From Adlercreutzia caecimuris B7 (GTDB lineage Bacteria; Actinomycetota; Coriobacteriia; Coriobacteriales; Eggerthellaceae): a DNA stretch of 64,000 nt. The notes below the pieces were generated by a model. The model did not search any database, was not told where the DNA came from, and was given only the letters and a program-made list of their open reading frames with translations. Location: the NCBI RefSeq assembly GCF_000403355.2, contig NZ_KE159646.1, forward strand, positions 452,424 through 516,423, written 5' to 3'. Position 1 is the first letter of the stretch. The number at the start of each line of letters is the position of its first letter. Below are positions 113-11,363 of the stretch, one piece after another. The position numbers and the translations under genes were made by a program.

Positions 113-1210
113 ATGAGACGCTTTATCGGAGTCGATGAAATCGAGGATATGGCCCTGGGCGCCACGGTGCTGGGCGCCGGCGGCGGGGGAGACCCGTATG
201 TGGGCAAGCTTATGGCCATCGAGGCCATTCGCAAGTACGGCGACGTGGAACTGATCACGCCGGACGAGGTGCCCGACGATGCCGTCGTGGTGGTGTCCCA
301 GATGATGGGCGCCCCCACCATCATGGTGGAGAAGATCTGCAGCGGCCTGGAGCCCATGGCCACTTACGACGAGATGGTGAAGGAGCTGGGCGTGGAACCC
401 TACGCCATCTACGCCGTGGAGGCCGGCGGTGTGAACTCCACCATCCCGTTCATTCTCGGCGCCACCCGCCGCATCCCCGTGGTGGACTGCGATCTGATGG
501 GCCGCGCCTTCCCCGAGCTGCAGATGACCACGCTGGGCATCAACGGCGTGAAGGGCCAGCCGGCGGTGCTTGCCGATGAGAAGGGCAACACCGTCACTGT
601 GCGCGCCATCGACGATCGCTGGCTCGAGCGCATCGCCCGCCAGGCCACCTCGGTCATGGGCGGTTACACCATTCTGGCCTCCTACATGTGCACCGGCCGC
701 CAGCTGAAGGACTTCGCCATTCCCGGCACGCCCACGCTGTGCGAGAAGATCGGCCGCACCCTGCGCGAGGCCCGTGAGATGCACGCCGACCCCATCGCCG
801 CCGTGCTCGAGGTCACCCGCGGGCACCGCCTGTTCAAGGGCAAGGTGGTCGATGTTGAGCGCAACACCGACGGCATGTTCGTGCGCGGGCGGGCCGTGGT
901 GGCCGGCCTGGATGACGACAAGGGCCGCGAGCTGGTCATCGAGTTCCAGAACGAGAACATCATCGCCCGGGCCGACGGCCGGGCCCTGTGCACCTCGCCG
1001 GACCTCATCATGTCACTGGATATGGAATCCGGCACGCCGGTGACCACCGAGGGCCTGAAGTACGGCGCCCGCATCGTGGTGGTGGGCATGCCCTGCGACG
1101 ATCAGTGGCGCACCCCCGAGGGCCTGGCGGTCGTGGGGCCGCGCGCCTTCGGCTACGACTTGGACTACGTGCCCGTCGAGGAACTAGTGGCGACGGAAGG
1201 AGGCCGATAA
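113..1210 (+). CDS. DUF917 family protein (S-methyl-thiohydantoin desulfurase-type domain), copy 1
   Basis: A 365-residue protein of the DUF917 family. These proteins are usually encoded beside hydantoinase/oxoprolinase-like ATPases, and the exact reaction of most members is unknown. A glycine-rich motif, GAGGGGDP, lies at residues 21-28, and a conserved stretch with VDCDLMGRAFPELQ follows near residue 125. I chose the ATG at 113 because it follows an AAGGGGA sequence and starts at the conserved MRRFIGVDEIED block; the longer open frame upstream has no family match. The stop overlaps the start of the next gene (TAATG), so the two are probably translationally coupled. A clear paralogue lies at 6805-7908. 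Its role in degrading a cyclic amide or ureide is inferred from its neighbours. Confidence 0.85.
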   Translation: MRRFIGVDEIEDMALGATVLGAGGGGDPYVGKLMAIEAIRKYGDVELITPDEVPDDAVVVVSQMMGAPTIMVEKICSGLEPMATYDEMVKELGVEPYAIYAVEAGGVNSTIPFILGATRRIPVVDCDLMGRAFPELQMTTLGINGVKGQPAVLADEKGNTVTVRAIDDRWLERIARQATSVMGGYTILASYMCTGRQLKDFAIPGTPTLCEKIGRTLREAREMHADPIAAVLEVTRGHRLFKGKVVDVERNTDGMFVRGRAVVAGLDDDKGRELVIEFQNENIIARADGRALCTSPDLIMSLDMESGTPVTTEGLKYGARIVVVGMPCDDQWRTPEGLAVVGPRAFGYDLDYVPVEELVATEGGR

Positions 1211-2790
1211 TGGCAGAGGAGAAGCGCACCTGGCGCTTGGGCATCGATGTGGGCGGCACCAACACCGACGCCGTGATCATCGACGGCGACCTGAACCTGG
1301 TCGCCTCTACCAAGAGCCCCACCACCGAGGACGTCATGGGCGGCATCAAGGCCGCCATGCACGAGGTGGTTTCCCAGATCGGCCTCGAGGCCGCGGCGAA
1401 CATCGGATTTGCCATGCTGGGCACCACCCACTGCACCAACGCCATCGTGGAGCGCCGCCGCCTGAACAAGGTGGCCGCCCTGCGAATCGGGGCCCCGGCC
1501 ACTACGGCCATCAGCTGCATGGCCGACTGGCCCGAGGAGCTGAAGAGCGCCATGCGCGTGCGCGACTTTCTGGTGCACGGCGGCCACGAGTTTGATGGCC
1601 GCGAGATCAGCGCGCTTATCGAGGACGAAATCCGCGAGGTGGCCCGCGTGGTGCGCGAGGAGGGCTTCGAGTCCGTGGCGGTCACGAGCGTGTTCTCGCC
1701 GGTGTCCGATGCCCACGAGCGCCGTGCCGTGGAGGTGCTGCGCGCCGAGCTCGGCGAGGAGTTCCCCATCTCGGTGTCCTCCGAGATCGGCTCGCTCGGC
1801 TTTCTGGAGCGCGAGAACGCCTCCATCCTGAACGCCGCGCTGGTGGACGTGGCCCGCACCACGGCCGACAGCTTCGAGGAGGCGCTGGCCGCCGAGGGTA
1901 TCGTGGATGTGGCCGTGTACCTCGGCCAGAACGACGGCACCCTCATGTCGGTGGACTACGCCAAGCGCTATCCCATCTTCACCATCGCCTGCGGTCCCAC
2001 CAACTCCATCCGCGGAGCGTCGTTCCTCACCCAGGAGAAGGACGCCATCGTCGTGGACATCGGCGGCACCACCACGGATGTGGGCGTGCTGTCCCACGGT
2101 TTTCCCCGCGAGTCCATGGTGGCCGTGGAGATCGGCGATGTGCGCACGAACTTCCGCATGCCCGACCTGGTGAGCGTCGGGCTCGGCGGCGGCTCCATCG
2201 TGCGCCGCGCCGAGGACGGCTCGGTCACCGTGGGCCCCGATTCCGTGGGCTTTCGCGTGACCCGCGCCGCGCTCGTGTTCGGGGGTGATGTGGTCACGGC
2301 CACCGATATCGTGGCAGCCCGGGGGTTGGCGCCCGAGGTGGGCGACGCGTCGCTCACATCCTCGCTCGACGCCGATCTGGTGGAGCGCGGCTATGCCGAG
2401 ATCGTCCGCATCATCGAGGATGCCGTGGACGCTATGAAGACCTCGGCCGGCGACGTGAAGGTGGTGCTCGTGGGCGGCGGTTCCATCCTGGCGCCCGAGG
2501 CCCTGGAAGGGGCGAGCGCGGTGCTGCGTCCGCCGCACTTCGGCGTGGCCAACGCCATCGGCAGCGCCATCGCCCAGGTGTCGGGCCAGATCGCCAAGGT
2601 GTTCTCGCTGTCCGAGACGCCCCGCGCCCAGGCCATCGAGGAGTCGAAGCGCCGCGCTTGCGACGAGGCTATCGCCGCCGGCGCCGATCCGGCCACGGTG
2701 GAAGTGATCGAAGTCGAGGATATCCCCATGGCCTACCTCGGCGATGCCCTGTGCATCCGCGTGAAGGCCGTGGGCGATTTGATGCTGTGA
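1210..2790 (+). CDS. hydantoinase/oxoprolinase (HyuA-like) family ATPase, copy 1
   Basis: A 526-residue member of the hydantoinase A/5-oxoprolinase family, within the acetate/sugar kinase-Hsc70-actin fold. The N-terminal phosphate motif LGIDVGGTNTD is at residues 10-20, and a second nucleotide-binding motif, DIGGTTTDVG, is near residue 283. A third glycine-rich segment, VLVGGGSI, is near residue 418. Known relatives open five-membered cyclic amides such as hydantoins or 5-oxoproline with ATP. The ATG at 1210 overlaps the stop of the DUF917 gene. The protein is collinear and clearly homologous with the one at 7913-9475, including identical GPTNSIRGAS and RTNFRMPD blocks. Substrate is not determinable from sequence. 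Confidence 0.87.
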   Translation: MAEEKRTWRLGIDVGGTNTDAVIIDGDLNLVASTKSPTTEDVMGGIKAAMHEVVSQIGLEAAANIGFAMLGTTHCTNAIVERRRLNKVAALRIGAPATTAISCMADWPEELKSAMRVRDFLVHGGHEFDGREISALIEDEIREVARVVREEGFESVAVTSVFSPVSDAHERRAVEVLRAELGEEFPISVSSEIGSLGFLERENASILNAALVDVARTTADSFEEALAAEGIVDVAVYLGQNDGTLMSVDYAKRYPIFTIACGPTNSIRGASFLTQEKDAIVVDIGGTTTDVGVLSHGFPRESMVAVEIGDVRTNFRMPDLVSVGLGGGSIVRRAEDGSVTVGPDSVGFRVTRAALVFGGDVVTATDIVAARGLAPEVGDASLTSSLDADLVERGYAEIVRIIEDAVDAMKTSAGDVKVVLVGGGSILAPEALEGASAVLRPPHFGVANAIGSAIAQVSGQIAKVFSLSETPRAQAIEESKRRACDEAIAAGADPATVEVIEVEDIPMAYLGDALCIRVKAVGDLML

Positions 2791-2799
2791 GGAGGTCCC

Positions 2800-3633
2800 A
2801 TGACTGAATCTCGTCCGGTGCGACTCGCCCTCATCCAGTTCGAGTCCGAGCTGGGCAACCCCGCCAAGAACACCGAGCGCGCCTGCCAGATGATCGCCGA
2901 GGCCGCCGAGGCCGGCGCCGATTTGGTGCTGCTGCCCGAGCTGTTCTCCACGGGCTACCAGCTGAACGCCATCGGGCCCATCCTGGGCGACCTGGTGGAG
3001 CCGGTGGACGGCCCCACGGTGCGCGCGCTGCAGGAGGCGGCCCGGGCCGGCGGGTGCTACGTGGCCGCCGGCGTGGCCCTCACCCGCGAGCTGACCGCCG
3101 TGCCCTACAACAGCTCGGTGTTCATCGATCGGGAGGGCAACCTGCTGGGAACCTACGACAAGCAGCACCTGTGGGCGCTCGAGCGCTTCTACTTCCGCGG
3201 CGGCAACGGCGGCGGCGTGTTCGACACCGACTTCGGACGTGTGGGCGTCATGATCTGCTACGACATGGGTTTCCCGGAGACTGCCCGCATGCTGGCTCTG
3301 AAAGGGTGCGATCTGGTGCTGTGCCTGGCCGCTTGGTGCAAGGAGGACATGGACGGCTGGTATCTCAACGGCCCCTCCCGTGCTTTGGAGAACACGGTGT
3401 ATACGGCTTGCGTGAACCGCTACGGTGTAGAGGACGATCTGGTGATGCCGGGCCATTCCTATGTGAGCAATCCGCGCGGTCACATCATCGCTGAGCTGGA
3501 GGGGGAGGCCGAGGGCGTCCTTGTCGCCGACATCGACCTGGCGGATGTGGCTGCGGGCCGCATGGACGGCCGCTACCCGCCCTACCTGCGCGACCGTCGC
3601 CCCGAGCTCTACGACGACGTGCTGCTGCCCTAG
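2800..3633 (+). CDS. nitrilase-superfamily carbon-nitrogen hydrolase
   Basis: A 277-residue enzyme with the full nitrilase-superfamily triad: Glu in LLPELFSTGY (about residue 46), Lys in YDKQHLW (about 121) and Cys in MICYDMGFPE (about 154). The family hydrolyses amide or carbamoyl C-N bonds. The sequence fits the omega-amidase/N-carbamoyl amidohydrolase branch better than true nitrilases, but the substrate is open. A GAGGAGG ribosome-binding site lies in the nine bases after the hydantoinase stop, so it is the third gene of that operon. In context it could cleave the N-carbamoyl or amide product of ring opening; this is inference. A strong convergent terminator follows at 3669. Confidence 0.88.
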   Translation: MTESRPVRLALIQFESELGNPAKNTERACQMIAEAAEAGADLVLLPELFSTGYQLNAIGPILGDLVEPVDGPTVRALQEAARAGGCYVAAGVALTRELTAVPYNSSVFIDREGNLLGTYDKQHLWALERFYFRGGNGGGVFDTDFGRVGVMICYDMGFPETARMLALKGCDLVLCLAAWCKEDMDGWYLNGPSRALENTVYTACVNRYGVEDDLVMPGHSYVSNPRGHIIAELEGEAEGVLVADIDLADVAAGRMDGRYPPYLRDRRPELYDDVLLP

Positions 3634-3668
3634 GCGGGCGGCTCGTTTTTCTGCCCCATCCCATAAAG

Positions 3669-3702
3669 AAAGGGCGCCGGAAATGCTTCCGGCGCCCTTT
3701 TT
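3669..3702 (+). terminator. intrinsic terminator, probably bidirectional
   Basis: A perfect 14-bp stem (3669-3682 with 3687-3700) closes on a four-base ATGC loop and is followed by T residues. A-rich sequence on the other flank gives T residues on the minus strand. It lies between the convergent nitrilase and permease genes and can serve both. Confidence 0.9.
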
Positions 3703-3723
3703 GCGCGTGCGGTGCGCTGCGGC

Positions 3724-5127
3724 TTACAGCACCTCGTCGGTCTCCTTGAAGGTGATGTTCTGCACGCCCTTGATGCGGGCGGCCACTACCATGACGACCC
3801 AGTACAGCAGGCCCGCCAGGATGAGCGAGTTCAGGCCCGGGATACCGATGGCGTAGATGCTGGACACCTCGCCGATGCCGAAGCCCACGAGCCAGCAGAT
3901 GATGGTGATGGGGTTCCAGTTCTCCACGCGCCGGGGCAGGATGCCTTCCTTGCGGGTCTCCTCCAGGACGGCGCGGCTGCGGCGCAGGAAGAAGTAGTCC
4001 ACCACCATGATGCCGGCCACGGGCGGGATGGCCACGCCGAGCAGGGTGAGGAAGCTCGTGAAGTAGTTGATGATGCCCACCACCGACAGCACGGTGCCCA
4101 CGATGCCGAGGGCCCACACCAGGGCGTTGCGGTTGGACACCTTGTTGAACAGGGCGTTGATCATGGTGGCCAGGCCGAGGCTGGACGAGTACAGGTTGAT
4201 GTCGTTCAGCTTCACGGTGGAGGCGACCACGATGATCACGCCGATGATGCCGGAGGTGCCCATCATGATGTCGACGACGTTCTCGGTGCCCATGGCGTTG
4301 GCCAGAAGCACGGCCAAGAGATTCATGCCCAGCTCGCCCAGGAAGGTGCCGATGAGCGTCATCCAGAACACCTGGTTGCCGTTCTTCAGGAAGCGGGCGT
4401 AGTCGGGGGTGCAGATGGCACCGGCGATAAATCCACCGGCGACCATGGTCGTGCCAGCGCCGATCGACAAAGCCGGTCCCGGAGGAGCCGCGGCGATGAG
4501 CTCGCCGATGGAGTGGCCCTGCAGCACGATGGCGGCGGCCACGATGACCACGATGACGAACAGCGGCACGAAGATGGTGGCGAAGTTAGCGATGGCCTTG
4601 ATGCCGAACACCACGAGCAGGGTGATGGACAGGCCCGTGATGATGGCCCACAGGATGTACTCGCCGGTCACGCCGGGAATGATCTCCTCGGTGCCGAGGA
4701 AGTCGGTGAAGGGCACGATGGAGGCCATGCCCTGGCCGAACACCGAGTTCTGCACGCCGAACCAGCCGACCATGGAGATGGCGACCACGCCGCCGAACAG
4801 GGCCGAGCCGCCCTTGCCCAGACCGCACCAGCGGGAAAGAAGGCTGGTGGACAGGCCCTCGTGAGCCGCGGCGGTACCGAGCGCCCAGCTGACGACCTGC
4901 AGCAGCACCGAGCCGAGCATAGTGCAGACGAAGGCGTCGAAGAACGTCATGCCGTAGCCGAGGGCGGCGCCCAGCATCAGCTGGGACACGCAGCAGATGG
5001 CGCCGATACGGATGAAGAGGATGCGCCAGAACGGCTGCTTGGCGCTGGCGGGAACGCGCGACAGCGAGTAATCGATGTCGCGGTTCTCGGCCTCGGCGGC
5101 CTCTTCGAATTGCTTTTCAGTTGTCAT
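3724..5127 (-). CDS. NCS1-family permease (cytosine/purine/hydantoin type), copy A
   Basis: A 467-residue integral membrane transporter of the nucleobase-cation-symport-1 family, with about 12 hydrophobic segments. The start DYSLSRVPASAKQPFWR leads into the first helix as in CodB-like cytosine permeases, and a VDYFFLRRS motif sits near the C terminus. I chose the ATG at 5127 because GAGAGAAGGA precedes it at good spacing; the longer frame to 5289 has no family match. It is divergent from a second NCS1 permease at 5393. NCS1 proteins import cytosine, allantoin, hydantoins or similar rings, so import of the substrate used by the flanking genes is a reasonable inference. A cytosine-specific role cannot be excluded. 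Confidence 0.85.
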   Translation of the reverse strand: MTTEKQFEEAAEAENRDIDYSLSRVPASAKQPFWRILFIRIGAICCVSQLMLGAALGYGMTFFDAFVCTMLGSVLLQVVSWALGTAAAHEGLSTSLLSRWCGLGKGGSALFGGVVAISMVGWFGVQNSVFGQGMASIVPFTDFLGTEEIIPGVTGEYILWAIITGLSITLLVVFGIKAIANFATIFVPLFVIVVIVAAAIVLQGHSIGELIAAAPPGPALSIGAGTTMVAGGFIAGAICTPDYARFLKNGNQVFWMTLIGTFLGELGMNLLAVLLANAMGTENVVDIMMGTSGIIGVIIVVASTVKLNDINLYSSSLGLATMINALFNKVSNRNALVWALGIVGTVLSVVGIINYFTSFLTLLGVAIPPVAGIMVVDYFFLRRSRAVLEETRKEGILPRRVENWNPITIICWLVGFGIGEVSSIYAIGIPGLNSLILAGLLYWVVMVVAARIKGVQNITFKETDEVL

Positions 5128-5392
5128 AGGCAATCCTTCTCTCTCAAAAGCGGCGGCGCGGCGTCTTTCCCCATCGGACCGGCGCTGCCGATACATGTGC
5201 TTCTGCTGAATGCAGAATGGAGAAATAATATCTTGCTTGCTTTTCATTTGTGTTTCCAATGGGAAAGGAATCCGTCTGCCTGGTTCCACCCGTCGCTAAA
5301 CGGCGGTTTCCGCGCCGCGATGGTATGCTGGCAGAGTTTGATTCGCGCCGTGGGGACGGTGCGCGAGAGATTGGAAAGGGGATGCGCCCGCC

Positions 5393-6808
5393 ATGGAATC
5401 GAAGGGACTCGGCGCCGATCTGTATGTCGACGAGGCGGACCGCAAGGATTGGAAGTCCATCGCCGTCATCCGCGCCGGGGGCATGTTCAGCGCCCCGACG
5501 CTGATGGTGGGAGCGGCTTTGGGGCTGGGCCTGGGCCTGGGCGGCTCGGCTTTGGTCACCTTGGCGGGCTTCGGCTTCATCGTCATATATATGTGCTTCG
5601 TCTCGATGCAGGCGTCGGATACCGGCGCGCCGACGGCGCTGCTGGCGGCCCCGGCCCTCGGTGTTGGCGGGGCGCGCTGGGTCGTGTCGCTCATCGTGGG
5701 CGTGGTGACCGTGGGTTGGTTCGGTGTGCAGACGGCCGTGTGCGGCGCGTCGCTGTCGCTTATGCTGGCGGCCACCTTCACTGTCGCGGCTCCCGAATGG
5801 GCCTGCGCTTTGGGACTGGGGCTGCTCATGCTGGTCACGGCGGTGATTGGCTTCTCGGGGCTGCGCTGGCTGTCCACCGTGGCGGCGCCCTTCCTCATGA
5901 CAGTCTGCCTCTACGGGGTGGCCGCATCTTTGGCTGGTGAGGGCGGGGTGGGGCCCCTGGTTGCTTTTGCCCCTGCGCCCGCCGACGCCATCGGCTTTCT
6001 GACCGGGGTGAACCTGGCCATCGGGCTGTTCGCCTTCGCGGGGTTCACCGCCGGCGACATCGCGCGCTTCGCGCGCACGCGCCGCGACGCGGTGCTGTCC
6101 TGCGTGGTGGGAGTGCTGCCCGCAGCCCTGGTGGCGCTCGCCTGCGCAGCGGCTTTGGCCATCGTGACCGGCGAGGGGGACGTGGCGGTGCTCATGAACT
6201 CCATCGGCCTTCCTGCGGTGGGACTTCTGGCCCTGGTACTGTCGGCCTGGACGGTGAACGCGAGCAACGTGTACTCCGCCGGTCTCGGCTTTGCCGTCAT
6301 GCTCGGCCGCGACGAGAGCGGCAGCAAGGTGACGACGCTCGTGGCGGGCATCGCCGGCATCGCGCTGGCCTTGGGGGGCATCTTGGGGCAGTTCGAGATG
6401 TTCCTGTCGTTTCTGTCGGCAACGGCCCCGGCCCTGGCCGGCGCGGTGGTGGCCGACTACTGGATCGTGCGCCGCGCGCGGCCCGAGAACGTGGAGCTCG
6501 TCGAAGGCTTCTCGGTGCCCGGTGCGGCGGCCCTCGGGGCGGGTGTGATCGTGGGTCTGGTCACGGGCGGTGCCTTCGCCGAAGTGCCGGGGCTGGCCTT
6601 TCTCAGCTTGCCCTTCTTCCTGGGGCCGGTAAACGCGCTTGCAGCCTCGATACTTTCCTATACCCTGGTCTACTACGCCACGGGCCGGCGCCGCTTCACG
6701 GGGCCGGTGCGCTGGCGCACCCCCGATACCTCTACGGCCCACGGCGCCGAGCGTGCCGCGGCCTGCGATACCGTTGCGAACTTCGAACCTGAGAGAGGGG
6801 CTTTATGA
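5393..6808 (+). CDS. NCS1-like permease, copy B
   Basis: A 471-residue polytopic membrane protein, hydrophobic almost throughout and alanine/glycine-rich, with about 12 predicted helices. It shares the NCS1 layout: a charged N-terminal tail to about residue 25, a GWFGVQT block near 107, and AGAVVADYWIVRRARPEN near 348, like the VVDYFFLRRS block of copy A. It is divergent from copy A across a 265-base gap. Its stop overlaps the ATG of the second DUF917 gene (ATGA), so it leads the second cassette operon. Whether the two permeases differ in substrate cannot be seen. Confidence 0.8.
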   Translation: MESKGLGADLYVDEADRKDWKSIAVIRAGGMFSAPTLMVGAALGLGLGLGGSALVTLAGFGFIVIYMCFVSMQASDTGAPTALLAAPALGVGGARWVVSLIVGVVTVGWFGVQTAVCGASLSLMLAATFTVAAPEWACALGLGLLMLVTAVIGFSGLRWLSTVAAPFLMTVCLYGVAASLAGEGGVGPLVAFAPAPADAIGFLTGVNLAIGLFAFAGFTAGDIARFARTRRDAVLSCVVGVLPAALVALACAAALAIVTGEGDVAVLMNSIGLPAVGLLALVLSAWTVNASNVYSAGLGFAVMLGRDESGSKVTTLVAGIAGIALALGGILGQFEMFLSFLSATAPALAGAVVADYWIVRRARPENVELVEGFSVPGAAALGAGVIVGLVTGGAFAEVPGLAFLSLPFFLGPVNALAASILSYTLVYYATGRRRFTGPVRWRTPDTSTAHGAERAAACDTVANFEPERGAL

Positions 6809-7908
6809 GAGAGATCGGCCTGAACGACATCGAGGACATCGCCCTGGGCGCCACGCTGCTGGGCGCCGGCGGGGGCGGCGACCCCTACATCGGCAAGCTG
6901 ACGGCCATGGCCGCCGTGCGCGAGTGCGGACCGGTGCGGCTTATCGGCGCCGACGAGCTGCCCGACGACGCCTTCGTGGTGCCGAGCGCGTCCATGGGCG
7001 CGCCCACCATCCTCACCGAGAAGGGCGTGGGGGCCCACGAGTTCCATCGTCTCTTCGACATGGTGGGCATGTTCTTCAACCGCCCGGTCTACGCCACCAT
7101 GCCCGCCGAGGCCGGCGGCGTGAACTCCATGCTGCCCATCGCCTGCGCCGCGCGCCTCGGCATCCCCATGGTGGACGCCGACGGCATGGGCCGCGCCTTC
7201 CCCGAGCTGCAGATGGCCACCTTCGCCATCGGCGGGGCCAGCGCGAGCCCCATGGCCTTCATCGACGAGAAGGGCAACGCCGGGGTGCTGTCCACGGTGA
7301 CGAACAAGTGGACTGAGGACATCGCACGGGCCGCCACCACCACCTGCGGCGGCACGCTGACCATCGCCCTGTACTGCATGGATGCCCCCACGGTGAAGGC
7401 CTACGGCGTCCACGGTATCGTGACGCGGTCCCAGAAGCTGGGGCATGCCATCCGCACCGCCAAAGAGGGCGCCGCGGCGGCCGGCATGACCCCCGAGGAG
7501 TACTTCCTGCACTTCACCGGCGGGTTCAAGCTGTTCAAGGGCAAGATCGCCGATGTGCTGCGCGAGACGCGGGGGGCCTTCAACTTCGGCCGAGCCGTGC
7601 TCGAGGGCATCGGCGAGTACCGCGGCAGCCGCGCCTTCGTCGACTTCCAGAACGAGAACTTGCAGTGCGTGGTGGACGGCGAGGTGCGCGCCACGGTGCC
7701 CGACCTCATCTGCCTGGTGGACCCGGAGACGTTCATTCCCGTGCCCACTGATGCGCTCAAGTACGGCAAGCGGGTGCTGGCCGTGGGGCTTACCTGCTTC
7801 GATATGTGGCGCACTCCGCGCGGGCTCGATCTGGTGGGGCCGCGCTATTTCGGCATCGACGTGGATTACGTGCCCGTGGAAGAGCTCTGCGGGCAGAAGG
7901 GGGAATAG
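6805..7908 (+). CDS. DUF917 family protein (S-methyl-thiohydantoin desulfurase-type domain), copy 2
   Basis: A 367-residue paralogue of the protein at 113-1210. The same IEDIALGATLLGAGGGGDP block is at the N terminus, the same MGRAFPELQM block near residue 130, and a matching FKLFKGKI segment near 240. The ATG overlaps the permease stop by four bases. The HyuA-like gene begins four bases after this stop. Retention of two divergent copies in one locus suggests different substrates or subunits, not a recent duplication. Confidence 0.85.
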   Translation: MREIGLNDIEDIALGATLLGAGGGGDPYIGKLTAMAAVRECGPVRLIGADELPDDAFVVPSASMGAPTILTEKGVGAHEFHRLFDMVGMFFNRPVYATMPAEAGGVNSMLPIACAARLGIPMVDADGMGRAFPELQMATFAIGGASASPMAFIDEKGNAGVLSTVTNKWTEDIARAATTTCGGTLTIALYCMDAPTVKAYGVHGIVTRSQKLGHAIRTAKEGAAAAGMTPEEYFLHFTGGFKLFKGKIADVLRETRGAFNFGRAVLEGIGEYRGSRAFVDFQNENLQCVVDGEVRATVPDLICLVDPETFIPVPTDALKYGKRVLAVGLTCFDMWRTPRGLDLVGPRYFGIDVDYVPVEELCGQKGE

Positions 7909-7912
7909 GGCC

Positions 7913-9475
7913 ATGTACAAACTCGGCATCGACGTGGGCGGCACCAACACCGACGCCGTGCTCATCGACGAGCAGGATGCGGTGGTGGCCGCGGTGAAGC
8001 GGCCCACATCCGACGATATCTACACGGGCATCATGGATGCGGTGGATGCGGTGCTGGAGGCCAGCGGGGCCGACCGCGCCCTCATCGGCCGGGCCATGCT
8101 CGGTACCACCCAGTGCACCAACGCCATCGTGGAGCGCCGCAACCTGGCGAGCGTGGCCGTGCTGCGCGTGGGCGCGCCGGCCTCGGTGGGCATCCCGCCC
8201 ATGGTGGACTGGGCCGACGACCTGGCCGCGGTGAGCCGGGGGTCGGCCATCATCGAGGGCGGCTTCGAGTACGACGGCCGTCGCCTGGCCGTCTTCGACG
8301 AGGGGGCCTGCCGGGCCTTCTTCGAGGGAGTGCGCGGCAAGGTGGACGCCGTGGCCCTGTCCTGTGTGTTCTCCACGGTGCGCGATGATGACGAGCGTCG
8401 CGCCGCCGAGGTGGCCCGCGAGGTGCTGGGCGATAAGGTGCACCTTTCGGTGTCCAGCGAGATCGGTTCCATGGGCCTGGTGGAGCGCGAGAACGCGACG
8501 ATTCTGAACGCGGCGTTGAACGAGGTGTCGCGTCGGTTTACCGAGGGCTTCGCCGAGAGCCTGGCCGCCAAGGGCATCACCGAGGCCGAGGTGTACCTGT
8601 CCCAGAACGACGGCACCCTCATGACCATGGAGCACGCGCGGCGCTATCCCATCCTCACCATCGCCTGCGGGCCCACCAACTCCATCCGCGGGGCGAGCTA
8701 CCTGACCGGGGTGGACGACGCCATCGTCATCGACGTGGGCGGCACCACCACCGATTTGGGCATCCTGTCGAACGGTTTTCCGCGCGAGAGCGGGGTGGCG
8801 GTGAACATCGGCGGCGTGCGCACGAACTTCCGCATGCCCGACGTGCTGTCCATCGGGCTCGGCGGCGGTTCGGTGGTGCGCGTGAGCGAGAGCGCCGACG
8901 GCACCGTGAGCGCCACGGTGGGCCCCGATTCGGTGGGTTATCGGATCGCCGAGCGGGCGCTCGTGTTCGGCGGTGACACGTGTACGGCCACCGACGTAGC
9001 CGTGCGCCTGGGGATGGCCGAGGTGGGTGATGCGTCGCTTGTGGCCGGGCTGCCCCTGGCTCATGCCGAGGCCGCCATGGAGACCATCCGCGCCATGGTG
9101 GAGGATGCCATCGACGTGATGAAGGTATCGAGCGATCCCATCGACGTGGTACTCGTGGGCGGCGGCGCCATCGTGCTGCCCCAGGATCTGGCCGGCACCC
9201 GCCAGGTGCTCGCTCCCGAGCACGCCGGCTGCGCCAATGCCATCGGCTCGGCCCTGTCGAAGGTGAGCGGTACCTACGAGGAGCTGGTGGACTACGATGC
9301 CGTGCCCCGCGACGAGGCTCTCGCCGCCGCCCGCGCTGCCGCCATCGAGGCCGCCGTGGCCGCCGGAGCGGTGCCCGAGACCGTGGTCGTGGTGGACGTG
9401 GAGGATGTGCCCCTGGCCTATTACCCGGGTCACACCAATCGCGTCAAGGCTCGTGCTGCGGGCGATTTGGCCTAA
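7913..9475 (+). CDS. hydantoinase/oxoprolinase (HyuA-like) family ATPase, copy 2
   Basis: A 520-residue paralogue of the protein at 1210-2790. LGIDVGGTNTDAV is at residues 4-16, DVGGTTTDLG near 277, and VLVGGGAI near 415. I chose the ATG at 7913 because it places the phosphate motif at the very N terminus, as in copy 1; the longer open frame from 7553 only overlaps the DUF917 gene. It is the last gene of the second cassette (permease, DUF917, hydantoinase). This cassette has no nitrilase, so if the two work together the single nitrilase at 2800 would be shared. Confidence 0.87.
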   Translation: MYKLGIDVGGTNTDAVLIDEQDAVVAAVKRPTSDDIYTGIMDAVDAVLEASGADRALIGRAMLGTTQCTNAIVERRNLASVAVLRVGAPASVGIPPMVDWADDLAAVSRGSAIIEGGFEYDGRRLAVFDEGACRAFFEGVRGKVDAVALSCVFSTVRDDDERRAAEVAREVLGDKVHLSVSSEIGSMGLVERENATILNAALNEVSRRFTEGFAESLAAKGITEAEVYLSQNDGTLMTMEHARRYPILTIACGPTNSIRGASYLTGVDDAIVIDVGGTTTDLGILSNGFPRESGVAVNIGGVRTNFRMPDVLSIGLGGGSVVRVSESADGTVSATVGPDSVGYRIAERALVFGGDTCTATDVAVRLGMAEVGDASLVAGLPLAHAEAAMETIRAMVEDAIDVMKVSSDPIDVVLVGGGAIVLPQDLAGTRQVLAPEHAGCANAIGSALSKVSGTYEELVDYDAVPRDEALAAARAAAIEAAVAAGAVPETVVVVDVEDVPLAYYPGHTNRVKARAAGDLA

Positions 9476-9602: not shown

Positions 9603-9679
<77 letters not shown>

Positions 9680-9701: not shown

Positions 9702-9778
<77 letters not shown>

Positions 9779-9918: not shown

Positions 9919-11226
9919 CTACTTCTCTGCCAGCATTTCCAAGATGAGTTGGCAGCGGGTGCCGATGGGGGTGGTGTTGGCGTCCAGGAAGGCTCGGATC
10001 TGGTGGCGGGGAAGCACGAAGGGCTCGATGATCTCGGCAGCTTCGGGGGCCGCCGCGCCACCCGGCTCCACGTGGGCGAACACGACGTGCACGTTCTCCT
10101 CGGCGAGGCCGGTGGACGAGAATCCCGGTTGGGGAAGCGGGCGCACGGGCGCGTCCACGTCATCGCGCAGGCGGTAGCCCGTCTCCTCGTACAGCTCGCG
10201 GGCCACGGCCTCTTCCAGCGACTCGCCGGCATCCACGAGGCCGGCGGGAAGCGAGATGCACCAGCTGTTCAGCGGATAGCGGAATTCCCGTTCCAGAAGC
10301 ACCGAGCCGTCGGGCAGGATCGGCACGATGCACACGGCATCGGGCGTGGGAGGCTCGCCGGCGCCGAGCGCGTCAAGCGCCGCGCGATAGGCCTCGGGCC
10401 CCTTGCGCGAGACGCCCTCGTAGGCGTAGGGGCGCCCGTCGGGCATCGTGTAGTGCAGGTGATACTTGTTGATCCAGCCCGTGGAGACGGTCTCGATGGA
10501 GGCGAGGCGGGGAGTGGGGGCGGCGTCGAAGGAGGGAAGGGCCTCGCGGGGCTCGGTCGCGTCTTTGGACGTGGCGCTGGCCGCCGCCGCGGTCTGCCGG
10601 GCGGGGGAGGTAGCCGCTGCGGCGCCCTCGACATCTGAGAGACTCGCCGTTCCCGTTGCCGCCAGCTCGTCAGCGGTCAGAATCTGCACCCCGACGTGTG
10701 CCATATCCGCCAGGTTCGCCCGCTGCACTTCCGGCGTGCGCGACGAGGTGGCGTCGGCGAGCACGGCCACGTTGTAGCCGAGCGCCATCCCGTCGTAGGC
10801 CGTCGAGCGCACGCAGTTCGGTGTCGTGGTGCCCGCGAGCACGATGGTGCCGATGCCGCGTGCCTGCAGACGCTCGTGCAGATCGGTGCCGAAGAAGGCC
10901 GACCAGCTCGGCTTCGCGATGACAGGTTCGCCCTCGCGTGGCTCCAGTTCGGGTGGGCAGGCGAGGCTCTCGGGCCATGCGGCGGACAGCGGCCGGCCGC
11001 CTTCCGCCCACGTCCCGTGGCGCACCGCTTCCACGTCGCTTCCGTCGGCGGCGTATTCCCGGCGCACGTGGTAGACGGCCAGCCTGTGGTCTCGCGCTGC
11101 GGCAAGCGCGCGCTCGCAGGCGGGGATTGTGGCGGCGGCGCCGGCGATGCATAGGGGCGAGGTGGTATCGATGAAGCCCCTCTGCATGTCGATGAGGATC
11201 AGCGCGGTGCGGGCGGCGTCGGTCAT
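9919..11226 (-). CDS. isochorismatase-family cysteine hydrolase fused to a Nudix hydrolase
   Basis: A 435-residue two-domain protein. Residues 1 to about 195 are an isochorismatase-like cysteine hydrolase with Asp13 (LILIDMQRGF), Lys about 104 (IAKPSWSAFF) and Cys about 137 (TTPNCVRST). The DxHxxxH metal site of nicotinamidases is absent. An alanine-rich linker spans about 195-260. The C-terminal part carries a perfect Nudix box, G-x5-E-x7-RE-L-x-EE-x-G, at about 326-348, preceded by SLPAGLVD as in ADP-ribose pyrophosphatase-type enzymes. The ATG at 11226 follows AAGGAGTTCC; the frame upstream runs into an inverted repeat and is not coding. The combination suggests nucleotide or NAD-related salvage, but neither substrate can be read from sequence. 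Confidence 0.88.
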   Translation of the reverse strand: MTDAARTALILIDMQRGFIDTTSPLCIAGAAATIPACERALAAARDHRLAVYHVRREYAADGSDVEAVRHGTWAEGGRPLSAAWPESLACPPELEPREGEPVIAKPSWSAFFGTDLHERLQARGIGTIVLAGTTTPNCVRSTAYDGMALGYNVAVLADATSSRTPEVQRANLADMAHVGVQILTADELAATGTASLSDVEGAAAATSPARQTAAAASATSKDATEPREALPSFDAAPTPRLASIETVSTGWINKYHLHYTMPDGRPYAYEGVSRKGPEAYRAALDALGAGEPPTPDAVCIVPILPDGSVLLEREFRYPLNSWCISLPAGLVDAGESLEEAVARELYEETGYRLRDDVDAPVRPLPQPGFSSTGLAEENVHVVFAHVEPGGAAAPEAAEIIEPFVLPRHQIRAFLDANTTPIGTRCQLILEMLAEK

Positions 11227-11261
11227 GGGAACTCCTTCTTTCAACGGCGTCAACGCGTAGA

Positions 11262-11363
11262 GGAAGTGCGGGGCGCCCTGACCGAGCGAGTTCCGCAGCC
11301 GGAACATGCACAGCATGTTCCGGGCGAGGACTGTCTGAGCGAATCAGGGCGCCCCGCACTTCC
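11262..11363. repeat. nested inverted repeat (outer 20 bp, inner 11 bp)
   Basis: Bases 11262-11281 are exactly complementary to 11344-11363. Inside lies a second perfect inverted repeat, 11299-11309 with 11313-11323, around a three-base loop. The 102-base unit sits between divergent genes and has no T run. It could fold as a long cruciform or RNA hairpin with side loops. Candidates are a REP or MITE-like dispersed element or a structured RNA. Only one copy is in this window. Confidence 0.85.

Follow-up and report, generated by a model that had tools for sequence, protein, structure and literature searches.

Two DUF917-HyuA gene sets with NCS1 permeases in Adlercreutzia caecimuris, possible systems for the uptake and opening of hydantoin-like rings

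A stretch of 64,000 nucleotides from Adlercreutzia caecimuris B7 (contig NZ_KE159646.1, positions 452424-516423; the window hereafter) carries at its positions 113-9475 two sets of genes, each of which combines a DUF917 protein, a HyuA-type protein, and a permease of the NCS1 family (Table 1). Seven open frames without internal stops fill this locus, as found by a frame check and a Pfam scan, and all listed Pfam matches of the seven proteins exceed their cut-offs (178-244 bits against 27 for PF06032 and PF20906). Both lines of evidence agree with the gene content proposed in an earlier sequence-only reading of this DNA, namely two DUF917 plus HyuA cassettes, a nitrilase, and two NCS1 permeases. 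The stop codon of DUF917-A and the ATG of HyuA-A share sequence, and the gap from HyuA-A to the nitrilase gene is 9 bases; similarly, NCS1-2 overlaps the ATG of DUF917-B, and only 4 bases separate DUF917-B from HyuA-B. Because of this close spacing, the genes are read as two operons, A (113-3633) and B (5393-9475).

Table 1. Genes and other features of the locus (window positions, unless a locus is named)
Feature	Position	Strand	Remarks
DUF917-A (S-Me-THD superfamily), 365 aa	113..1210	+	operon A gene 1; PF06032 181 bits, PF20906 244 bits
HyuA-A, short, 526 aa	1210..2790	+	PF05378 131 bits, PF01968 112 bits; PF19278 none
Nitrilase-superfamily amidohydrolase, 277 aa	2800..3633	+	operon A final gene; PF00795 192 bits
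Probable terminator separating operon A from the convergent NCS1-1 gene	3672..3702		perfect 11-bp inverted repeat, 4-base loop, T run
NCS1-1 permease, set A	3724..5127	-	PF02133 96 bits
NCS1-2 permease	5393..6808	+	operon B gene 1; PF02133 97 bits
DUF917-B, 367 aa	6805..7908	+	PF06032 178 bits, PF20906 207 bits
HyuA-B, short, 520 aa	7913..9475	+	PF05378 120 bits, PF01968 106 bits; PF19278 none
DUF1177 and M29/NicX-like genes	L003:14016-15984, just left of window		divergent from DUF917-A; DUF1177 PF06675 414 bits

The association of DUF917 with HyuA is nearly complete among related loci. A DUF917 was counted as window-type if it scored 200 bits or more against the window DUF917 or its homologue, and as paired if a HyuA gene lay no more than 1.5 kb away on its strand. 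On this basis, 117 of 119 cases in 100 loci are paired with HyuA; the two unpaired cases are found at position 9932 of L048, where HyuA lies upstream at more than 1.5 kb, and at a contig end (L105). The counts omit L001-L033, which are short and mostly repeat longer loci, and L163, which has short flanks. In contrast, none of eight thiohydantoin desulfurases of the same superfamily is paired, and no HyuA match occurs anywhere in their eight loci of 12-13 kb. Three distant DUF917 proteins outside the 119 have HyuA nearby in one case. Furthermore, the distance matrices of DUF917 and HyuA show a correlation of 0.906 over 107 pairs, compared to a maximum of 0.13 in 1000 permutations. In 71 operons, the correlation is 0.947 for DUF917 and HyuA, 0.843 for DUF917 and the permease, and 0.818 for HyuA and the permease. 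Common descent explains part of the correlation between DUF917 and HyuA.

The HyuA proteins contain the phosphate and adenosine motifs of the ATPase domains, which read DVGGTNTD, DIGGTTTD, and GLGGGS in HyuA-A, and their best NCBIfam matches are to CapA (104 and 96 bits). The closest solved relative of HyuA-B by sequence is the 5-oxoprolinase 6yra (75 bits). HyuA of DUF917 pairs have a median length of 520 residues. HyuA-A and HyuA-B do not match the C-terminal domain PF19278 (E 0.001), nor do two other short HyuA proteins, whereas two long ones of 677 and 687 aa do. No HyuB match (PF02538) was obtained in the whole genome by a search that gives matches in 6 of 14 control genomes, and a HyuB partner encoded elsewhere in the genome was rejected on this ground.

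The domains formerly called DUF917 are now named S-Me-THD_N/C in Pfam (PF06032 and PF20906), and both window proteins belong to them. The sequence-only reading had regarded the DUF917 reaction as largely unknown, which does not hold for the superfamily as a whole. NCBIfam names two branches as equivalogs, thiohydantoin desulfurase (NF058529, cut-off 440) and S-methyl thiohydantoin desulfurase (NF058532, cut-off 450), and the neighbours of three such genes resemble ergothioneine catabolism. Eight proteins from 398 Bacilli genomes exceed the thiohydantoin desulfurase cut-off, and eight neighbouring proteins from three of these eight loci were scanned. The matches are thiourocanate hydratase (L153 and L155), a HutH-like lyase (L155 and L157), an ErtD-like hydantoin-5-propionate amidohydrolase below the cut-off (L153), and the N-carbamyl-L-glutamate amidohydrolase ErtE (L157), while one open frame of the eight gave no match. 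With such neighbours, the desulfurase branch fits a role in ergothioneine use.

The window proteins share with the desulfurases a core visible in the alignment (G22-G25, G65-P67, D124, R130-A131, N283-E284, and P299-D300), but differ from them in several respects. DUF917-A and DUF917-B score 83.7 and 88.5 bits with NF058529 and 97.4 and 108 bits with NF058532, respectively, far below the cut-offs, and positions fixed in the eight desulfurases are different in the window type (W for D26, Q for E102, and T for D126). They also have a short HyuA beside them, and the genome gives no match to PF01175, the urocanase family of thiourocanate hydratase. An ergothioneine route for the window DUF917 was rejected on the basis of the low scores and the missing PF01175 match. 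An AlphaFold2 model of DUF917-B (pLDDT 91.5) matches 2o3i with a Z of 38.8 and an rmsd of 2.3 over 334 residues. Residues 56-195 of DUF917 weakly match the cobalamin protein ChiG (Z 5), which may reflect a common arrangement.

Both window permeases are NCS1 members by PF02133. The alignment of permeases comprises 88 rows (87 distinct), 6 of 94 having been dropped for length. Substrate-contact roles were taken from passages of PMC4195764 for Mhp1 and PMC9379551 for CodB. The equivalents of the hydantoin contacts of Mhp1 are kept almost throughout, that is, Trp117 in 88/88, Gln121 in 87/88, and Asn318 in 88/88, although the position of Asn318 relative to CodB depends on the gap placement of the aligner; both window permeases have all three. 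The equivalent of CodB Gln105 is found in 0/88, and the two window permeases have Met and Thr there. The retained Mhp1 contacts and the absent CodB glutamine suggest that one edge of the imported ring resembles hydantoin, and no more than that.

The locus had also been described as duplicated, which is wrong if a local copy is meant. The DUF917 tree (126 rows, 109 different sequences) places DUF917-A in a 100/100 clade with Eggerthellaceae and related A-type loci, and DUF917-B in a 100/98 clade consisting mostly of NCS1-DUF917-HyuA operons from gut Firmicutes, so that a local tandem duplication was rejected. The identities between the A and B paralogues are 48% for DUF917, 55% for HyuA, and 28% for the permeases. 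Gene maps cover 81 loci, namely that of the window together with the best 80 of at least 259 confirmed stretches. Their common order is permease, DUF917, HyuA; a permease gene occurs in 69/81, a PucR regulator in 42/81, and a PF01177 racemase-family gene in 13/81, and permease-bearing loci are found in Firmicutes, Spirochaetes, and archaea, among others. PF01177 also matches twice in the present genome, both times distant from the locus, and one of the two proteins may be a cell-wall glutamate racemase. In five loci (L045, L049, L053, L054, and L102), two DUF917 genes accompany one HyuA, which may indicate either a DUF917 heterodimer or two substrates.

Conservation of the gene order in other Eggerthellaceae, which the sequence-only reading had proposed as a check, is seen in the gene maps for set A. 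This set extends leftward past the window to a DUF1177 gene and an M29/NicX-like gene, which face away from DUF917-A at 128 bases from its start. Among 14 long-flanked loci of the A clade, counted by hand (the window's own and L034-L046, of which L037 ends early), DUF1177 is present in 13, the M29-like gene in 12, the nitrilase in 11, and the permease in 10. NCS1-1 goes with set A because its eight closest relatives, at 0.76-1.0 identity, all sit in A-type loci. Set B adjoins set A, among the mapped loci, only in this genome, L034, and L035. Among the matches listed, the best segment of DUF917-A is 100% identical in Adlercreutzia muris and A. mucosicola contigs, which makes these species close kin of the present genome.

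The genes of set A also occur together across 138 Eggerthellaceae genomes, in which presence was scored with self-chosen cut-offs that retain close homologues only (E of 1e-60 for the nitrilase, 1e-40 for HyuA, and 1e-20 for the M29-like gene). DUF917 is present in 29 of the 138 genomes and a close HyuA in the same 29. DUF1177 is found in 28 of these and in 0 of the other 109, the nitrilase in the same 28 genomes as DUF1177, and the M29-like gene in 17 of them. In five genomes (G098, G102, G104, G109, and G133), DUF1177 and the nitrilase lie off the DUF917 contigs, near each other in the first four, and the pattern therefore does not arise from proximity to DUF917 alone. Of the nine genomes of the genus, three have all the genes and six have none. 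PF06032 and PF06675 match in the same two of the 14 control genomes, Haloferax volcanii and Sulfolobus acidocaldarius. The Fisher test on this co-occurrence ignores kinship and its values are too small.

The two sets differ in their association with DUF1177. Genome G080, whose single DUF917 belongs to the B clade, contains neither DUF1177 nor a close match to the nitrilase, and DUF1177 is absent from 24/25 genomes chosen from B-type loci, being present in one. From this it could be deduced that A and B are probably two separate systems and, together with the 28 of 29 genomes above, that the nitrilase and DUF1177 are tied more closely to set A than to set B. As an exception, a B-clade DUF917 has DUF1177 and the nitrilase beside it in L090, an uncultured member of Eggerthellaceae that mixes A and B sets, and in G037.

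Residues E47, K121, and C153 of the nitrilase, along with E128, are invariant in 10/10 aligned sequences including the window's; Glu-Lys-Cys is the triad of the nitrilase superfamily. The best solved relatives of the protein are archaeal nitrilases, and none of the 11 matching NCBIfam models reaches its cut-off. A model of DUF1177 built for the A. muris copy from 11 sequences (pLDDT 78.6) matches M28/M17/M42/M20 metallo-hydrolases with Z of 16-17 over approximately 220-276 residues at 6-15% identity, among 50 matches listed. The predicted fold suits a dipeptidase or a carbamoyl hydrolase. N-carbamoyl hydrolases such as ErtE share this fold. The M29/NicX-like gene gives no Pfam or NCBIfam match, and the M29 part of its label is presumed from sequence features; its A. 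muris homologue matches the 2,5-dihydroxypyridine dioxygenase NicX (7cn3, E 1.3e-12).

The role that fits best is to take up a small cyclic ureide or amide and to open its ring, in accordance with the sequence-only reading. More specifically, and at close to an even chance, the locus may encode two separate uptake-and-opening systems for hydantoin-like rings, in which HyuA activates the ring, DUF917 replaces HyuB, and the product of set A is processed further by the nitrilase and DUF1177. HyuA-type ATPases such as 5-oxoprolinase phosphorylate the ring oxygen. Following import of the ring by the NCS1 permease, the short HyuA would use ATP to phosphorylate the ring carbonyl oxygen, giving an activated imidate, and DUF917 would catalyse the attack of water on the activated carbon, by which the ring opens; in ordinary HyuA/HyuB enzymes, this latter task is that of HyuB. 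The desulfurases would offer a parallel, as water would there attack the ring carbon bearing sulfur or S-methyl, which leaves. Oxygen in place of sulfur would be a poor leaving group. Since HyuA accompanies window-type DUF917 but not the desulfurases, the simplest account may be that HyuA creates a leaving group and DUF917 carries out the hydrolysis. The nitrilase and DUF1177, the latter as a hydrolase of metallopeptidase fold, could then complete the processing of the linear product in set A. A bolder version of the scheme is possible, if somewhat doubtful. Short HyuA with DUF917 would then constitute a further architecture of ATP-dependent cyclic-amide hydrolase, the desulfurases would be an ATP-free branch with sulfur in place of phosphate, and the Eggerthellaceae pathway would include DUF1177.

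Several observations weigh against this interpretation. Its main loose end is a middle class of DUF917 in Bacilli genomes (L162-L172), of which 12 of about 28 matches were fetched; 20 of the many matches with lower scores were fetched as well, chosen by the author. HyuA is near a middle-class DUF917 in only 2/11 cases, both beside another DUF917-HyuA set, and DUF1177 is present in 10/12 fetched loci, mostly following DUF917 and often with the M29-like gene. A class without its own HyuA suggests that DUF917 can work without HyuA on a compound not known as a thio compound. Moreover, the 119 window-type cases are mutually related; 94 stem from loci selected because they resemble the window, and 25 from loci of the author's choice. 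No HyuB-type chain occurs among the 50 matches listed in either fold comparison of DUF917, and the predicted replacement of HyuB would thus probably be by an unrelated protein. The best solved relative of the permeases is CodB (144 bits, compared to 43 bits for Mhp1), with identities of 0.29 to CodB and 0.22-0.23 to Mhp1, and, according to a passage of PMC4195764, equivalents of the Mhp1 contacts matter in some purine and cytosine NCS1 members too. No biochemistry of the window-type DUF917 branch was found in the open-licence literature searched.

Cyclic dipeptides are a real rival as substrates, although on balance an unlikely one. Set A, or perhaps all window-type pairs, would then open diketopiperazines or other cyclic amides rather than ureides, and DUF1177 and the M29-like protein would act as dipeptidases on the linear product. 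The metallo-hydrolase fold modelled for DUF1177 and its restriction to DUF917 genomes within the family are in line with this, as is the enrichment of DUF917, PF01177 racemases, and peptide transporters in cyclodipeptide oxidase (CDO) clusters reported in part of PMC11055893. However, an NCS1 permease with Mhp1-like contacts would suit five- or six-membered ureides at least equally, and the nitrilase would suit a carbamoyl or amide end. The fold itself is not decisive because of the N-carbamoyl hydrolases that share it. A less probable alternative leaves the ring to HyuA alone and assigns to DUF917 another step, such as a second hydrolysis, a hydration, or an isomerisation, with no two-part enzyme. 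It would explain why DUF917 occurs without HyuA in the desulfurase and most middle-class loci, and agrees with the finding that no fused DUF917-HyuA gene exists among the open frames searched. Against it stand the short HyuA without the C-terminal domain of the two long proteins, the lack of a HyuB match in the genome, the near-complete pairing, and the fact that DUF917 and HyuA give the highest of the three distance correlations.

Two further explanations appear very improbable. If the window DUF917 proteins themselves acted as thiohydantoin or S-methyl thiohydantoin desulfurases in a pathway of the ergothioneine type, their homology of 84-108 bits to the named families would be accounted for, but these scores are less than a quarter of the cut-offs, the fixed residues differ, PF01175 has no match in the genome, and the eight true desulfurases are without HyuA. 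Slightly less probable still is ordinary nucleobase salvage, with permeases importing cytosine or purines and flanking genes that are unrelated. The cytosine permease model NF008241 is the best NCBIfam match of both permeases, in keeping with CodB as the best solved relative, yet the scores of 173.9 and 166.5 bits miss its cut-off of 326. Cytosine salvage was rejected on the contact residues, by the absence of CodB Gln105 and the retention of Mhp1 Gln121, and the presence of a permease gene in most mapped DUF917 loci of such different phyla also argues against unrelated neighbours.

The proposed ring-opening systems resemble several known ones in part. HyuA/HyuB hydantoinases, 5-oxoprolinase, and the caprolactamase CapAB have the HyuA ATPase domains and motifs in common with them, whereas the window HyuA proteins have about 520 rather than 690 aa, no PF19278 match, and DUF917 in the place of the partner, with no HyuB found. 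Other hyu gene clusters include the hydantoin permease Mhp1. An NCS1 permease with hydantoin contacts is common to these clusters and the window, as is a racemase-family gene in some of the window's relatives (Mhp1 facts from a passage of PMC4195764), but the permease body at the window is nearer to CodB and a HyuA-type protein is what resembles a hydantoinase there. In the CDO-linked clusters of PMC11055893, DUF917 and PF01177 racemase-family genes also occur together, whereas the transporter at the window is NCS1; a passage of that paper had suggested that DUF917 proteins are hydantoinases. Clostridioides difficile CDR20291_1615-1617, listed with consecutive numbers as permease, DUF917, and hydantoinase in a table of regulated genes (PMC12915319), are a further likeness, for which the passage around the table states no function.

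Parts and pairings of this sort are already in public annotation. A joint reaction or substrate of HyuA and DUF917 was not found described in the open-licence literature searched, nor were the idea of HyuB replacement, the contrast with desulfurases, and the set of DUF917, HyuA, DUF1177, and nitrilase. Pairs of DUF917 and HyuA are common, both among gut anaerobes and outside them; the best 80 of at least 259 stretches include Eggerthellaceae, Lachnospiraceae, Oscillospiraceae, lactobacilli, Spirochaetes, and some archaea. If the favoured interpretation is true, two domains formerly of unknown function, DUF917 and DUF1177, would be placed in one gut pathway. The HyuA-free desulfurases provide a natural control and the four-gene set is jointly present or absent, by which the reactions of DUF917, short HyuA, and DUF1177 should be resolvable with few purified proteins.

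Some minor features accompany the locus. The hairpin between operon A and the convergent NCS1-1 gene was seen by direct reading of the sequence. A terminator consensus scan missed it and listed 3624-3642 instead, its 6 matches being little in excess of the shuffle mean of 4.1, and a promoter scan of the locus found nothing. At window positions 9919-11316, the minus strand encodes an isochorismatase-type hydrolase and a NUDIX domain in one protein, which none of the open frames searched in other DUF917 loci matches; carbamoylsarcosine amidase is a member of the isochorismatase family. Two tandem tRNA-Asp genes (9603-9679 and 9702-9778), identical in all 77 bases, lie 3' of operon B.

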